The notes beneath the pieces are model-generated. The model had not been told where the DNA came from, did no database searches, and saw only the letters and a list, made by a program, of their open reading frames with translations. A stretch of DNA of 64,000 nucleotides, taken from Opitutia bacterium (GTDB taxonomy: Bacteria > Verrucomicrobiota > Verrucomicrobiia > Opitutales > UBA953). Shown here piece by piece: positions 2,216 to 51,380 of this stretch. Within the stretch, counting starts at the first letter, position 1; every line of letters begins with the position of its first letter. The position numbers and the translations under genes were made by a program. The stretch is from positions 1 through 64,000 of the forward strand of contig BGOI01000001.1 in the NCBI GenBank assembly GCA_003569165.1. The letters are read 5' to 3'.

Positions 2216-2809
2216 ATGCCCCTGAAGCGTCTCATTGCGTTGTTGCTCACCCTGCCCTGCTTGGCCCTGTCGGCCAACGAAGTCGGACTAGAATCGACCA
2301 GCCCCAGCCGCTTCGGTGCGAAGTTCGTCGAGGTTAGCGGGAAGGTCACCGCGGAGTTCAATGGCGACAAAGGCGTCTTCGCTTTCTTCAGCTTCTCCGA
2401 CAAAGGCGAATGGTCTGCCGAAGCCCTCGTGACGATGCCGGCCGGCAAGTCGGCCACGCTGACGGGCAAGGTCGCCGGCAAGGCGTACAATGCATCCGGT
2501 AAAATCGAAGGCACGGGTAAGCCTGAGTGGATCTCCCTCGGCACGTTCAACGCTCTCGCCGACGCGCCCGCTTTCTTGCAGCTCGAAGCCAAAGAACGCA
2601 AAGGGTCGGTGACCCTGCACGGCTATCGCTTCACCTGCGCAGCGAACGCTAAGGCCAAGGCGAACGCGGTGCCGCTCCTCCATCTGAAGACCGCCTACAC
2701 CGAATCACCGGAAATCTCGGTCGGCGACCGCGGCGGCGTCGGTGCGGCCACGATCCAAAAATCCGGCGGACGATTGCTCATCCCGTGGTCGTCGAAAAAC
2801 CAGGGGTGA
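2216..2809 (+). CDS. N-terminal part of a DUF5077/DUF3472 secreted protein
   Basis: This starts with a clear signal peptide (MPLKRLIALLLTLPCLALSA) and continues with one beta-rich domain of about 120 residues that contains EGTGKP and GSVTLHG. The following gene begins with a similar domain (EGTGKP, GSVTLNG) and then enters DUF3472. The two frames overlap by 25 bases and differ by one base, so they are best read as one secreted protein (2216-3891) of two DUF5077-like domains plus DUF3472, split near an A5 run (2795-2799) and a G4 run (2803-2806). DUF5077/DUF3472 proteins are often found with polysaccharide-degradation genes; their activity is unknown. The last residues before the stop are probably shifted. 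Confidence 0.65.
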   Translation: MPLKRLIALLLTLPCLALSANEVGLESTSPSRFGAKFVEVSGKVTAEFNGDKGVFAFFSFSDKGEWSAEALVTMPAGKSATLTGKVAGKAYNASGKIEGTGKPEWISLGTFNALADAPAFLQLEAKERKGSVTLHGYRFTCAANAKAKANAVPLLHLKTAYTESPEISVGDRGGVGAATIQKSGGRLLIPWSSKNQG

Positions 2810-3891
2810 AGAAACTCTCCGTACGCTTCACCGCGAACAAGGGCTCGACGGCCACCCTGGCCGCACACGTCGTTGATAACCTCAAGCTGGATGCGCTGAA
2901 GAAGACGGCCAAGGTCGCCGTCCAGCTCGAAGGCACCGGCAAGCCCGCGCTCTCCAAGGAGATCGCCCTCACCTTCCCTGCCGCCGGCACTTATCTCGTC
3001 GCGCTGGAGCCCCGGGAAGCCAACGGGAGCGTGACGCTCAACGGACTTCTGCTCAACGGCGCGACCAATCCGGAAATCTGGGCGCTCCCGAACGGCAATG
3101 CGCAGTCGGTGCACTTCGGCTACCCGGTGCCCAAAGGCGAGACCGCCCTCTGGGCCTACGCCGAATCGAAGTCTCTGCCCGGCCCGCCCACGACCTACAA
3201 CTGCGTGCTGGGCTTTGGCCACGGCTACTTCGGCTACCAACGCAAGACGGCCGGCACCGAGGCCAAGGACCGGGTGTTCATCTACTCGCTCTGGGATAAC
3301 GGCTACGTCAAGAACGACGCCAAGAAGGTCAGCGCCGAAGAACTGCGCGACCTCGTCGTGACGACGGTCGCCAAAGGCCAGGACGTCGTGGCCTCGGCCT
3401 TCGACCACGAAGGCTCGGGCGGCCATAGCCATCTCGATTATTCATGGAAGGACAACACGGCCTATTCATTCCTGCTTGGCGTGAAGGCCGACGGAGATGC
3501 CGCGATCTTCTCGGCCTGGGTGAAGCTTGCCGAGACCGGACAGTGGCGCTTCCTGACGTCGTTCCGGCGTCCGAAGACCGCGGCCAAGCTCGACGGACTC
3601 TATTCCTTCGTCGAGGACTGGTCCGGCTCCTACGGCCAGGTCGAACGCAAATGCCTCTATTCCAACCTCTGGATACGCAACGCTGCCGGCAAGTGGATCG
3701 CGCTCAAGGAAGCCAAGACCAGCGCTACGTCGGAGCTCGGCCGCAAGGACTACGCCCATACCGTCGAAGGGAACTCCGTGGCACTGATCACCGGCGGTTA
3801 CTCGAGTATCGATGGTAAACGCGGCGTTGTGCTGACGATTCCCGCGGGGAAAGGGCCGGTCGTGGATCTGGCGAAGCTGCCGACGAAGTAA
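2785..3891 (+). CDS. C-terminal part: DUF5077-like domain plus DUF3472
   Basis: The nominal start is GTG at 2785, but there is no signal peptide, so this is probably the continuation of the gene starting at 2216. Residues 1-95 or so form a second copy of the beta-rich domain. From about residue 100 the sequence matches DUF3472, with the hallmark GHGYFGYQ followed by VFIYSLWDNGY. The stop codon (3889-3891) lies in the stem of a 10-bp hairpin (3884-3906) that borders the inverted-repeat element downstream. DUF3472 has no proven reaction; carbohydrate binding or processing is an inference from its usual context. Confidence 0.7.
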   Translation: MVVEKPGVKKLSVRFTANKGSTATLAAHVVDNLKLDALKKTAKVAVQLEGTGKPALSKEIALTFPAAGTYLVALEPREANGSVTLNGLLLNGATNPEIWALPNGNAQSVHFGYPVPKGETALWAYAESKSLPGPPTTYNCVLGFGHGYFGYQRKTAGTEAKDRVFIYSLWDNGYVKNDAKKVSAEELRDLVVTTVAKGQDVVASAFDHEGSGGHSHLDYSWKDNTAYSFLLGVKADGDAAIFSAWVKLAETGQWRFLTSFRRPKTAAKLDGLYSFVEDWSGSYGQVERKCLYSNLWIRNAAGKWIALKEAKTSATSELGRKDYAHTVEGNSVALITGGYSSIDGKRGVVLTIPAGKGPVVDLAKLPTK

Positions 3892-4586
3892 GCGAAGCTT
3901 ACTTCGAGGGGGAACTGCTGGCATGGTGAACTGCTGCGAAGCAGTCGCGCCAAGCGCGTGCTGGCATGGGTACTGGTGATCTGCTGCGAAGCAGAGACAA
4001 GGAGGAATCTAGTGGCCGGAAGTGGATTGAAGTAACCAGTTGATTGGAGATGCGAAAGAGGCGCCGCGAAGGCAGGTTGGCTTGATGCATCCCGACGACC
4101 CCGTTTCACCACGTGAAGCTGTCCGCAGCTACCGCGACTTAAACCTCTGGAAAGAAGCAAAGATTCTGGCAATCGAAGTGCTAAGGATCGCCGACGGACC
4201 GACGCTCTCACGCCGGCGTGCCCTCTGCGACCAGATCAGCCGATCGGCCATCTCCGTTCCGTCTAATATCGCCGAAGGAGACGAGCGCTGCAGCAATCGT
4301 GACTCCATCCGATTTCTCTATATCGCCAGAGGGTCGGCGGCCGAACTCGCGACCCAACTCGAGATAGCCCACGACATCGGCGCACTCACCCCAACGGAAT
4401 ATCAATCGACCCATCGAAGGCTTTACTCGGTCAACCAGCTCTTAGGTGGCACGATCCGCATGCGACAGGAACGTCTCCGCCAAGAAGAACGTCACCCCTG
4501 ACCTGCCCACTACCCTTCAAGTATCTGCTTCGCAGCAGTTCACCATGCCAGCAGACCCCACGAGGCGCTTCCTAGAAGCGCCTCGT
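3884..4586. mobile_element. Inverted-repeat element carrying a four-helix-bundle gene
   Basis: The element has perfect 30-bp terminal inverted repeats at 3915-3944 and 4525-4554, each beginning CTGCTGGCATGG from outside. Outside the arms lie GGGGGAA on the left and ACCCC on the right, then hairpins. The left hairpin (3884-3906) contains the stop codon of the upstream gene in its stem. The right hairpin (4560-4586, 12-bp stem) has CTA, the stop codon of the convergent TonB receptor gene, as its 3-nt loop. A diverged direct copy of the arm sits at about 3960-3994. The only gene inside is the four-helix-bundle gene. Mobility is inferred from this architecture and from the gene-less copy at 1943-2149; no transposase or target-site duplication was recognised. 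Confidence 0.6.
4085..4501 (+). CDS. Four-helix bundle protein (23S rRNA IVP/S23 family)
   Basis: The 138-residue product has the family hallmarks of S23-like four-helix bundle proteins (TIGR02436): SYRDLNLWKEA at the N-terminus, LCDQISRSAISVPSNIAEG in the centre, then FLYIARGSAAELATQL. ATG at 4085 gives the usual family length; an in-frame TTG at 4040 would add 15 residues. Relatives are encoded in intervening sequences of 23S rRNA, or stand alone, and share a fold with the Avd protein of diversity-generating retroelements; the function of stand-alone members is unknown. This gene lies between 30-bp perfect inverted repeats, which recalls the stem-loop layout of rRNA intervening sequences, although no rRNA gene is nearby. 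Confidence 0.85.
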   Translation: MHPDDPVSPREAVRSYRDLNLWKEAKILAIEVLRIADGPTLSRRRALCDQISRSAISVPSNIAEGDERCSNRDSIRFLYIARGSAAELATQLEIAHDIGALTPTEYQSTHRRLYSVNQLLGGTIRMRQERLRQEERHP

Positions 4587-6413
4587 CAGGCCCACATACG
4601 CCGAACGGGGCTGGGCGCCGAAGCCGAAGGCGGCGGGCGGAGCGTCCTCGCCGAAGAGGTTCTCGATGCGCAAGGATATCTCGGTGCCGTCCGCGAGGAT
4701 GCGGCGGATCCAGACACGGACGTAGGTCGCATCCGGCAGGCTCACGCGGCTGCTGCTATTCCAATTATAGTCTTCGCGGCCGCGCAGGTGCGCGGCGGAG
4801 AGCCCGAAGGCCCAGTCGTCATTCGGAATGACTTCCACGCCGAGCGTCAGGTGAATGAAGGGGCGGCGTAGTAGTTTGTCGCCGGTCAGACCGGTGCCAA
4901 AGAGGTAGTCGGTGGAGCGGATCTCGCTGTCGAGCCAAGTGGTCGCACCGAAGAGGCGAAGGCCTTTGGCCGGACGCGTCTCAAGGCCAGCCTCAATCCC
5001 CTGCGTCCGGGCTTTCGCGATGTTATAGCTCTGAAAGCTAACGGGATTGCTGTCGATGAGGTCGGTCAGTTCGTTACGGAAAGCGACGAGCGTCCACGAC
5101 AGCGCGCCAGGGACGGCGTTCTCGTGTCGCAGGCCGATTTCAGTACCGGTATTGCTCTCAGGAAGAAGCGGCAGGCCGAGATGAGTGCCGAAAGCGAGGT
5201 CGTTGGCGGCCGGAGCACGGTAAGCGGTGCCGACCTTGGCATGAGCCAGCAGTTCCTTGGTGAAGCGATGGGAATAGGAAACCTCACCCGTGGTCTTGCC
5301 GGCGAAATCGGTGAAGCGATCGTCGCGGACGGAAGCACGGATGCGGTCGACCGAAGTCACCTGCCAGTCAGCACGCGTCCAGACACCAAGGCTCTCATGC
5401 GTGTCCGCCCAGGTCTGGCTGTTCGTGGTCACATCGAACTGCTCGAACGTTGACCGCTCGTAGGTGAGGCCGAGGCCGAGGGTAAGGTCGGGACGCACCT
5501 TGCGGTCGACGAAGGCCGTCAGCTCATCGCGATCCAGCAGATAACGATTAGCGTAGGGCGCCGTGACACTGGAAATTGCGCTACCCGGCGCGAGACCAGA
5601 AGACGGTGGCATCCATGTTCGCATCTTGAAAGCGGAGGCCAGGCGACAGCAGCCAGCCGCTGTCGCGTTGCCAATCCGTCAGGCTCGATGTGCCACCGAT
5701 ATCTTGCCCGGGTAGGCCAGCCTTACCGTGGTCGGCCGAGCCGACGAGGTCGAACACCAGATTAGGAGACAAACGCCACTCGTGTTTGAGATAGGTGCTC
5801 AGCGCATCGCGATCGCCATTCGGACGCCAGCCGTCGTCGTGCGAGGCCGAGAGACTGACGGCGGTGCCATTCGTGGCCGCTTGCGTACCGACAGCGTTGT
5901 TCGACAGGAACGCGAGACCCAGCGAGCCACGTCCGTAGGAACCCCCTTCGGCGACGAGCGTGGAGCCGGCCTTGGCTAAGAGCGGCGACTGCTGACGCAG
6001 ATCGATTACGCCGCCGAGAGCGTTGGCTCCGTAAAGCGACGAGGACGGCCCACGGAGGATTTCCACAGAGGAGAGGCCGAAGATGCGATAGCGTCCGATC
6101 TCATAGGAATTGGAAAAGCCCTGTGGGAGACGGCGGCCATCCAGGAGCACCGCCGTCTGGGTCGAGTTCGTGCCACGGAGGAAGAGTGAACCCACGGAGC
6201 CTTCGCCCGACTGCTCGGTCGCGTAGACGCCCGGTGCGCCCCCAGGAGGCTGGTGAGCGTCGTCAGGCCCGATTCTGTCGCGGCCGTGACATCGAGGCGA
6301 CTGACCGAAGGCGAGGCGTCAGCCAACGGGGCGGCTTGCCGAGTTTCGATCACGACGGTCTCGGGCAGACGGGTGGGCGCTTGAGCGAGGAAGATTGCGA
6401 GGATGCTTAACAT
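4572..6413 (-). pseudogene. TonB-dependent receptor, split by two frameshifts
   Basis: This outer-membrane receptor is BtuB-like in outline. A signal peptide begins at 6413 (MLSILAIFLAQAP). A plug follows (SLFLRG, AVLLDGRRLP, VEILRGPSSSLYGANALGGVIDL), then a long beta-barrel whose last strand ends in Phe (YVGLTRRF). The frame shifts near 6239-6243, where one G is missing from a G5 run on the coding strand, and near 5585-5587, where a G3 run seems one base too long. Restoring both gives one protein of about 610 residues. The stop codon forms the loop of the hairpin bordering the inverted-repeat element. The substrate cannot be told from sequence; no cobalamin riboswitch was recognised upstream. 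Confidence 0.75.
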
Positions 6414-6975: not shown

Positions 6976-7000
6976 GCGCAGCTTAGCGCGGGGGAACTGC
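6968..7000. repeat. Stop-codon hairpin plus truncated element edge
   Basis: A 10-bp perfect stem (CGCGCTAAGC/GCTTAGCGCG, 3-nt loop) contains the TAA stop of the ACT gene and is followed immediately by GGGGAACTGC. The same arrangement (hairpin across the stop, then GGGGGAACTGC) occurs at 3884-3918. The rest of the element is absent; a second hairpin (GTCCGCC/GGCGGAC, 7004-7021) follows. Confidence 0.75.
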
Positions 7001-7025
7001 AAAGTCCGCCGCAGGGCGGACCAAG

Positions 7026-7228
7026 GTAGGGGCACGATTCATCGTGCACTCCGAAACAGGCAACCGAGAGGTATTGGCGGTTAGCGGTTGGCGGTTGGAA
7101 ACACAGCAAGGCGGGAGGGCGCGGCGAAGCCACGCCCCTACCCTCGGCCGCCCTGCGGCGGCCAGCATCAGGTAGGGCCGAGCATCCCTGCTCGGCCGCA
7201 CGGCCGACCAAGGATGGTCGGCCCTACC
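7026..7228. repeat. Cluster of GTAGGG-family palindromes
   Basis: This fills most of the 403-base gene-free stretch 6976-7378. It holds a single hairpin at 7026-7049 (GTAGGGGCACGA with TCGTGC), a phrase repeat at 7077-7100 (GCGGTTAGCGGTTGGC), and at about 7110-7165 a segment whose reverse complement nearly matches 54826-54877. A complete three-way-junction unit lies at 7171-7228: outer stem GGTAGGGCCGA/TCGGCCCTACC, with inner hairpins GGCCGAGCA/TGCTCGGCC and GGCCGACCA/TGGTCGGCC. No gene was seen here. Confidence 0.8.
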
Positions 7229-7378
7229 CGAGACAATAACACCATGAGGCGTCCTGACCTGGGTTTAAACAGGCGAGCAAAAGGTAATGAAGGTGGAGAC
7301 GTCGGATGGTTCCGCCCTGCGGCGGCCCATCCTTGATTGCATCTCCGCCCGAGATGGGCAAAGTTCCGCTCCCTTCGC

Positions 7379-51115: not shown

Positions 51116-51380
51116 GAGGCGAAGAAGACGAGAAAGGCGGCGGATGCAAAGCAGATACCATGGTAGGTGGTGGCGGTTAGCGGTTGGCGGTTGGCGGTTA
51201 AGCGTTCTCAGGGTGCGGGTGGCAGCCCCAGGTAGAGGGTGGCGGGCGAGGCATGCCCATCGATTCCTGCCACCTGTATCTTTGTTTTCTCCAGTCCTCA
51301 GGCCCTCGGGTCCTCCGGTCCTCTTTTCCACGCTCTCCTGCCTTGTCTCCCGCCCCTCCCTGCTTTCTCCTTCCCCTCCC
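51116..51380. repeat. Phrase-repeat spacer upstream of ffh
   Basis: 51173-51199 carries GCGGTTAGCGGTTGGCGG extended by another GCGGTT unit (related copies at 7077 and 35584). 51222-51285 has GGGTGGC and GCCACC phrases like those at 44236-44319. From 51296 there are CCCTCGGGTCCTCCGG phrases. No promoter could be picked out. Confidence 0.5.

Follow-up and report, generated by a model that had tools for sequence, protein, structure and literature searches.

The window analysed here comprises the first 64,000 nucleotides of contig BGOI01000001.1 from an Opitutia bacterium (assembly GCA_003569165.1). Between two host genes it carries a small element in which a gene for a four-helix-bundle protein of the S23/IVP family (PF05635), hereafter the S23 gene, is enclosed by inverted arrays of short units. 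The reading favored here, to which about an even chance is given, is that this element belongs to a repeat system of two parts, being the member that carries the gene, and that S23 takes in this system a role like that of the RAYTs (REP-associated tyrosine transposases, REP standing for repetitive extragenic palindromic sequence) towards REPINs (REP doublets forming hairpins). The first part would be a mostly single-copy S23 gene, fixed in place within the genus between two convergent short-unit arrays; the second would consist of gene-less arrays dispersed in the genome, often as convergent doublets. Comparison of sequences establishes the anatomy of the element, its generality across phyla, a co-variation of arms and proteins, an array copy number linked to the cognate gene, presence, absence and inversion at orthologous sites, and purifying selection on the gene.

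The arm occurs in two copies on the left of the S23 gene and in one copy on its right. Left copy 1 (3908-3944, + strand) reads, in 8-nt units recognized by eye, GGGGGAAC TGCTGGCA TGGTGAAC TGCTGCGA followed by AGCAG. Left copy 2 (3959-3994, + strand) is a partial direct repeat of it, positions 3974-3994 being 95% identical to part of the arm, and the inverted right arm lies at 4525-4559 on the - strand. Positions 3915-3944 and 4525-4554 were perfectly complementary across 30 bp, and the wider pair 3910-3944/4525-4559 (35 bp) was 94% complementary. A flanking inverted repeat scoring at least 30 was found around just 2/422 control open reading frames (ORFs) from the fetched loci, and the inverted repeat of the window is therefore not attributed to chance. 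A single recognizable gene lies between the arms (4085-4501, + strand, 138 residues), which starts at ATG 4085 or at TTG 4040 and ends at 4501. The sole family match there is PF05635. The arms enclose no transposase of their own, unlike a classical transposon or insertion sequence, and the enclosed gene is not a Y1 transposase as in a REPIN-RAYT system.

The assignment of the gene rests on profile matches, on a predicted fold and on the ratio of nonsynonymous to synonymous substitution rates (dN/dS) given below. The protein matched PF05635 with E 1e-28 and 100.1 bits (curated cut-off 33.8) and TIGR02436 with E 1.5e-28 and 99.1 bits (cut-off 24). Its AlphaFold2 model is a four-helix bundle (predicted local distance difference test, pLDDT, 93) whose best structural match is Xcc0516 (PDB 2GSC; E 9.5e-7), BT_0352 (2RLD) also being close; a more distant fold match is Avd of diversity-generating retroelements (4DWL; template modelling score 0.69, E 7.6e-3). 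Among solved structures, a sequence search picked out 2GSC and 2RLD, plus a further match at E 1.6. Five chains each are listed in the PDB for 2GSC and 2RLD. We know of no catalytic domain in S23 proteins, and a search of the window protein for phage carriage gave no match. The title of a reference on Xcc0516 mentions five four-helix bundles (PMC10053308), and PF05635 was called a functionally uncharacterised family (PMC11270868); sources given by PMC number are cited throughout for the available parts of their text. The window's own genome holds three S23 genes, one of which (L074, contig C16) has an in-frame stop and may be decaying.

The locus lies outside ribosomal RNA (rRNA): its neighbors, both identified by profile match, are a DUF3472 gene (2785-3891, + strand) and the C-terminal part of a TonB-dependent receptor gene (4572-5624, - strand). 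Hairpins at 3884-3906 (+ strand) and 4560-4586 (- strand) each overlap the stop codon of one of these convergent genes, and equivalents of both are retained in a relative, G037, without S23 gene at the site. They are therefore regarded as host features outside the element, the 3' hairpins of the two neighbors, and were rejected as element ends. The earlier note on this DNA had reported perfect 30-bp inverted repeats around an S23/IVP-family gene, which the complementarity and the PF05635 and TIGR02436 matches bear out; the hairpins that it placed at the outer edges are real but belong to the host genes. It made no mention of the second left arm copy, of the gene-less copy of the ends at 1969-2131 or of the arm's 8-nt periodicity. 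Its view of the locus as an intervening-sequence-like RNA element was not supported. According to that explanation, the arms would pair in the transcript into a stem that RNase III excises, and it could invoke the shared protein family and the rRNA intervening sequence of Coxiella, in which terminal inverted repeats with a 28-bp stem likewise surround an S23 ORF (PMC4990558). Pairing at the RNA level predicts more G-U than A-C mismatches in transcript sense, and no such excess was seen (76 vs 73, and 28 vs 36), in a test that counts related loci more than once, may be blurred by the registers of tandem units and comes without an adequate RNA positive control. The arms are thus not evidently kept as an RNA stem, and RNA-stem upkeep was rejected. 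The protein-coding flanks, the lack of any Rfam match at 3700-4800, the dispersal of S23-less doublets and the host ownership of the outer hairpins also speak against an RNA element, which is considered very unlikely. A reverse-transcriptase partner was likewise rejected, since RVT_1 matched in only 1/55 genus genomes, many of them incomplete, and not in the window's own genome. What remains, once an RNA stem and retro-mobility are set aside, is a partnership at the DNA level.

Inverted arrays are a general attribute of S23 genes. A set of 122 S23 genes was assembled, 103 from the genus (window copy included) and 19 from the family and order, together with 80 named loci from many phyla; loci with fewer than 120 bases on one side were excluded (9/122 and 1/80), and arms were scored as a flanking inverted repeat of score at least 18, with other ORFs as controls. 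In the genus and its relatives, inverted arms were found at 81/113 S23 loci against 10/422 control ORFs from the same loci, the median inverted-repeat scores being 22 and 9, respectively. In the many-phyla set, the corresponding figures were 37/79, a denominator that includes a few misframed ORF calls (L199, L211, L216, L247), and 8/256. Nineteen plasmid records with an S23 relative were found (15 cyanobacterial and 4 from Riemerella), and arms were present at 9/12 fetched S23 loci, all cyanobacterial, counted at S23 loci alone without control ORFs. Inverted arms are thus common around genes of this family, the co-occurrence that the earlier note had proposed to look for. The arms are inverted arrays of short G-rich units, mostly of 6-8 nt: periodicity was detected in 165/184 arms from the genus and relatives (shuffled, 5) and in 76/76 from many phyla (shuffled, 2), with periods mainly of 6, 7, 8/16 and 12 in the former and of 7 or 14 in 58/76 of the latter. 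Among the arrays detected, lengths of four to five units are the most frequent, longer ones trailing off gradually (medians 5.5 and 6.1), a preference also seen in control flanks, and G exceeds C in the left arm in 93/94 and 36/42 cases. Two of the plasmid loci, L360 and L361 from Pseudanabaena and Anabaena, hold a four-helix-bundle gene with inverted short-unit arrays between cas6 and cas4, and a similar element in a Nostoc edaphicum plasmid (L357) lies between genes annotated as ribonucleotide reductase beta subunit and alpha domain.

The type of arm also follows the type of protein. Among 24 genus representatives, arm similarity tracked protein identity (Mantel r 0.32, p 0.001), and the effect was weak over all 82 representatives (r 0.08, p 0.013). 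Among the many-phyla pairs, the 46 that are at least 50% identical showed an arm similarity of 0.341 vs 0.239 (p 0.0005). From the Mantel values and the 46-pair comparison it would therefore appear that arms diverge fast and that related proteins tend towards related arms. The arm of the P00 cluster, AGGGGACA CGTGGGCA CGGTGACA CGTGGACA, resembles the 8-nt array of the window.

The second part of the system is illustrated within the window itself. At 1969-2131, 1.8 kb from the S23 element, both ends of the element are repeated around a short middle without gene and between unrelated flanks: a left block (1969-2056, 81/88 identical), whose homology to left copy 1 begins at GGGGG and which also covers left copy 2, and a right block (2097-2131, 34/35). 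The window arm motif was found in 26/55 genus genomes, with up to 38 matches and none for the reversed control, and many of these genomes lack the S23 type of the window. Four other motifs, P05, P00, P01 and P08, were present in 31, 45, 39 and 41 of the 55 genomes, respectively, the reversed control of P01 not being clean (up to 9 matches per genome). The orientation of S23-less neighboring arrays at most 1 kb apart was counted in chosen genomes among the 488 arrays listed, from which the S23 genes' own arms were excluded; S23-less status was taken from the S23 matches listed, some loci being read directly. There were 34 convergent, 2 divergent and 5 same-direction pairs, and none within 1 kb for the P08 family among the arrays listed. 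Such convergent doublets have the layout of the S23 element minus the gene. At L313 and L319, one array doublet lies inside another, as would be seen if fresh doublets landed within older ones, and the window region 6990-7230 is a mosaic of GGTAGGGGC-type hairpin repeats with a P01-type array within.

To compare the abundance of the arrays with the presence of their cognate genes, five array families were set against five S23 clusters in the 55 genomes, after subtraction of matches in fetched S23 loci. Copy numbers here are pattern matches and not arrays, and S23 presence was taken from the matches listed, so that a cognate gene may exist in some genomes scored as without it. The P23 gene of G017 is counted in the P08 set; G016, where the P04-cluster copy has different arms and a different neighbor, is left out of the P04 set. 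The area under the receiver operating characteristic curve (AUC) for the cognate cluster was 0.93, 0.86, 0.70, 0.83 and 0.86 in the five families, the cognate cluster was the best in every row, and the cognate assignment was the best of the 120 possible pairings. At least one further array copy was held in 44/44 cognate cases. It had been asked beforehand whether the window's arms occur widely with no link to four-helix-bundle genes: they are indeed widespread, often without this S23 type, but their copy number is strongly linked to the cognate gene, with the AUC of 0.93.

A further explanation regards the arms as ordinary REPs moved by RAYT transposases, with the S23 gene as a passenger. RAYT-type Y1_Tnp matches exist in 28/55 genus genomes, 24 of them above the cut-off, and at the orthologous site of G054 (L051) a weak Y1_Tnp match (21.9 bits, below cut-off) sits inside the same outer arm ends. 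With own arms again subtracted, P08 copies are predicted by RAYT presence as well as by the cognate gene (AUC 0.86 each), and P01 copies weakly (0.66). RAYT presence fails, however, for P04, P05 and P00 (0.58, 0.58 and 0.60), and for this reason RAYT was rejected as a general driver. In RAYT-negative genomes the cognate S23 gene still predicts P04 (0.94, n=3) and P05 (0.93, n=5), P00 showing no such effect (0.59, n=5) and P01 and P08 having too few RAYT-negative cases for an estimate. Inverted arrays also accompany S23 genes in many phyla, a count that covers the flanks of S23 genes and of control ORFs. Passenger status for the S23 gene is accordingly rated as unlikely. In the same DUF3472-TonB interval of G054, GGTAGGGGC repeats accompany the Y1_Tnp match.

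Orthologous sites allowed the element to be followed between genomes. A DUF3472 relative is present in 22/55 genus genomes, and in 10/22 the fetched locus also shows the TonB receptor gene pointing towards it; in G014, G051 and G039 a TonB gene is on the other side. Seven of the ten DUF3472-TonB sites hold the S23 gene, in the same orientation in G000, G013, G042, G029, G015 and G012 and inverted in G004, where the entire element is flipped, two-copy side included. The other three lack it: the G037 site is reduced to GGGGGAA/GTTCCCCC, G007 has a hairpin repeat without gene, and G054 is the site with the weak Y1_Tnp match. In G016, an S23 gene of the window's cluster lies beside the DUF3472 gene, with other arms and another neighbor. 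Thirty loci around a different conserved gene, a number of them ending early at contig ends, gave two further sites, at which S23 genes of other clusters were present in 6 and 8 loci. At the second of these, S23-less genomes have 43-44 bp (G017 and G046) or 77 bp (G029) between the neighbor genes and no array, G018 has only fused outer ends, and others hold other repeats. An array of P01 type (GCGGTTAGCGGTTGGCGG) occupies window positions 51162-51199, an intergenic site where relatives hold a P05 S23 gene. The earlier note had proposed to look for insert-free orthologous gene pairs, and such pairs exist; its description of a free-standing, possibly mobile element stands insofar as a discrete unit tied to the bundle protein is present, absent or inverted at one orthologous site, but no transposition was seen.

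In-place inversion, which both flanks confirm at each of two sites (G004; G016/G032 vs G051/G022/G031), would be expected of an invertible switch in which recombination at the arms flips expression of the gene. The inversions observed separate species, however, most clusters show no flip within the cluster, and the flip in G004 takes in the complete unit between the arms, which implies no outside promoter. A switch is the least probable of the explanations considered and is thought highly improbable.

The inheritance of the gene was examined with the 103 genus genes and 3 added by hand, which fall into 25 clusters at 70% identity and 16 neighborhoods, the latter built by single linkage on flank matches, so that repeats could over-merge them. 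One copy per genome was counted in 10/11 clusters, the exception being two contigs of G034. Median dN/dS ranged from 0.06 to 0.22 in nine clusters and was 0.10 in the window gene's cluster (4 members), values that identify the S23 gene as being under purifying selection; from the shared neighborhoods, the gene appears to be vertically kept. Fourteen genus clusters come together in one supported group (100/98) of a tree built from 103 proteins, along with a single row of the same family and with L173 (Opitutae bacterium BS10), whose distance to the G051 copy is zero. A further two genus rows fall elsewhere, and phyla are mixed in the rest of the tree, with 33 label changes where at least 15 are needed. 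Over long periods, the S23 gene thus appears to have come to occupy many sites by multiplication; no recent jump was seen.

Several results weigh against a repeat system spread by S23, among them the P08 and P00 outcomes of the RAYT comparison. Each 70% cluster keeps one chromosomal neighborhood in the genus, that is, no transposition was seen. Inspection of the sites by eye showed no target-site duplication, and G037 and G018, which lack the gene, retain outer arm ends, which looks like deletion and not like a never-filled site. Arms score below 18 at 32/113 and 42/79 S23 loci, and the whole-matrix Mantel test on the 58 non-genus representatives was not significant (r 0.04, p 0.14). The cognate margin of P00 is slight (0.70 vs 0.69), and shared ancestry inflates the copy-number link, for which the off-diagonal cells control only partly. 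Finally, among the matches listed, 9/11 genus genomes without S23 match still carry at least one of the five motifs, for instance 11 P00-type copies in G053 and 10 P08-type copies in G043; a resident gene is therefore not needed for the arrays to persist. G041 and G049, again among the matches listed, have neither an S23 match nor a match to any of the five motifs.

The main rival explanation takes S23 for a repeat-binding host factor (nucleoid, replication or regulatory). The arrays would spread otherwise, the genes would sit among them for autoregulation, and no mobility would be driven by S23. Purifying selection, the fixed neighborhoods with mostly single copies, the arrays in genomes without S23 match and the lack of a known catalytic domain are all in keeping with such a factor. 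It does not readily explain the convergent doublet form of S23-less arrays, nor why the miniature of the window shares the exact ends of the element, nor why array copy number follows the cognate gene, and it is held to be possible, with a probability well short of even.

Under the two-part repeat system preferred here, S23 driving the spread of the arrays is an inference by analogy with RAYTs. An S23 pentamer would recognise its own array, perhaps as single-stranded DNA at the replication fork, by lying along four to five units placed side by side. Recognition would allow the doublet to be copied, to be kept or to become fixed in further intergenic positions, in the manner of RAYT and its REPINs. 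Because no catalytic domain is known in S23, the enzymatic step would have to be supplied by the host.

The resemblance to REPIN-RAYT systems (PMC8049555, PMC3116915) extends to the dispersed inverted doublets (the window miniature and the 34 convergent against 2 divergent pairs), to a single-copy, vertically kept gene beside its own repeat type, and to more repeats where the cognate gene is present, weakly so for P00 and with kinship uncorrected. RAYTs are themselves single-copy, vertically inherited and associated with higher REPIN numbers (PMC8049555). In contrast, the gene of the S23 system codes for a four-helix-bundle protein and not for a Y1 tyrosine transposase, and its repeats are arrays of short units, whereas the REPIN-RAYT repeat is one imperfect palindrome. 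The rRNA intervening sequences share an S23-family ORF between inverted repeats (PMC4990558), and PF05635 was reported within rRNA insertions of candidate phyla radiation bacteria (PMC11270868). Unlike them, the window locus is not in rRNA, gives no sign of RNA-level pairing and has dispersed S23-less copies. Avd of diversity-generating retroelements has a similar fold and a relation to PF05635 (PMC10053308; PDB 4DWL, 8UB7), and PF05635 appears in data on these retroelements (PMC10053308), but 54/55 genus genomes, many of them incomplete, are without reverse-transcriptase match.

Similar in form are the dispersed G-rich heptamers described by Rehm et al. in Xanthomonas and Nostoc, which are enriched in non-coding DNA, prefer four units and in general show no association with mobile elements. 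Two Xanthomonas genomes contain 70 and 75 convergent pairs of them, whereas pairs are few in Nostoc PCC 7120, and none lie on its plasmids (PMC4692102). These 7-nt arrays agree with those of the S23 system in dispersal, convergent pairing and four-unit preference, but the available account makes no link to S23 (PMC4692102). Xanthomonas campestris, of a heptamer host genus, encodes the S23 protein Xcc0516 (PDB 2GSC). The TAACTGA repeats of Beggiatoaceae, Cyanobacteria and Bacteroidetes are mostly intergenic, patchy heptamer arrays as well (PMC4679880). Unlike S23 arrays, they are direct repeats, with one inverted case, and the terms 'four helix', '23S' and 'S23' are absent from the text of that paper (PMC4679880). 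No report tying S23 genes to flanking arrays was found in the open-licence literature. To our knowledge, the S23 system fits by protein homology no described repeat system; by function alone, it could be filed as a variant of the REPIN kind.

The pairing of gene and repeat across bacteria hints at a repeat-spreading partnership. In a broader and more tentative form, which is put forward as a possibility appreciably less probable than the two-part system itself, S23 proteins would be the trans-acting agents of a bacteria-wide class of repeats. The pentamer would read its own array and, using neither transposase nor reverse transcriptase, drive the spread of doublets by way of the replication or repair machinery of the host. 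All of the cyanobacterial and Xanthomonas heptamers, the REP-like repeats of the window and also the intervening sequences of 23S rRNA would be products of this single system, the rRNA insertions being outliers. That each protein type is tied to its own array type offers a concrete, testable ligand for the functionally uncharacterised PF05635. Bacterial heptamer arrays, so far recorded without an agent (PMC4692102), gain a candidate agent. The results also suggest a possible place for the intervening sequences of rRNA, after which the family is named, as a side branch. If true, the S23 genes and their arrays would form a repeat-gene system parallel to REPIN-RAYT, built on a protein without known catalytic domain.

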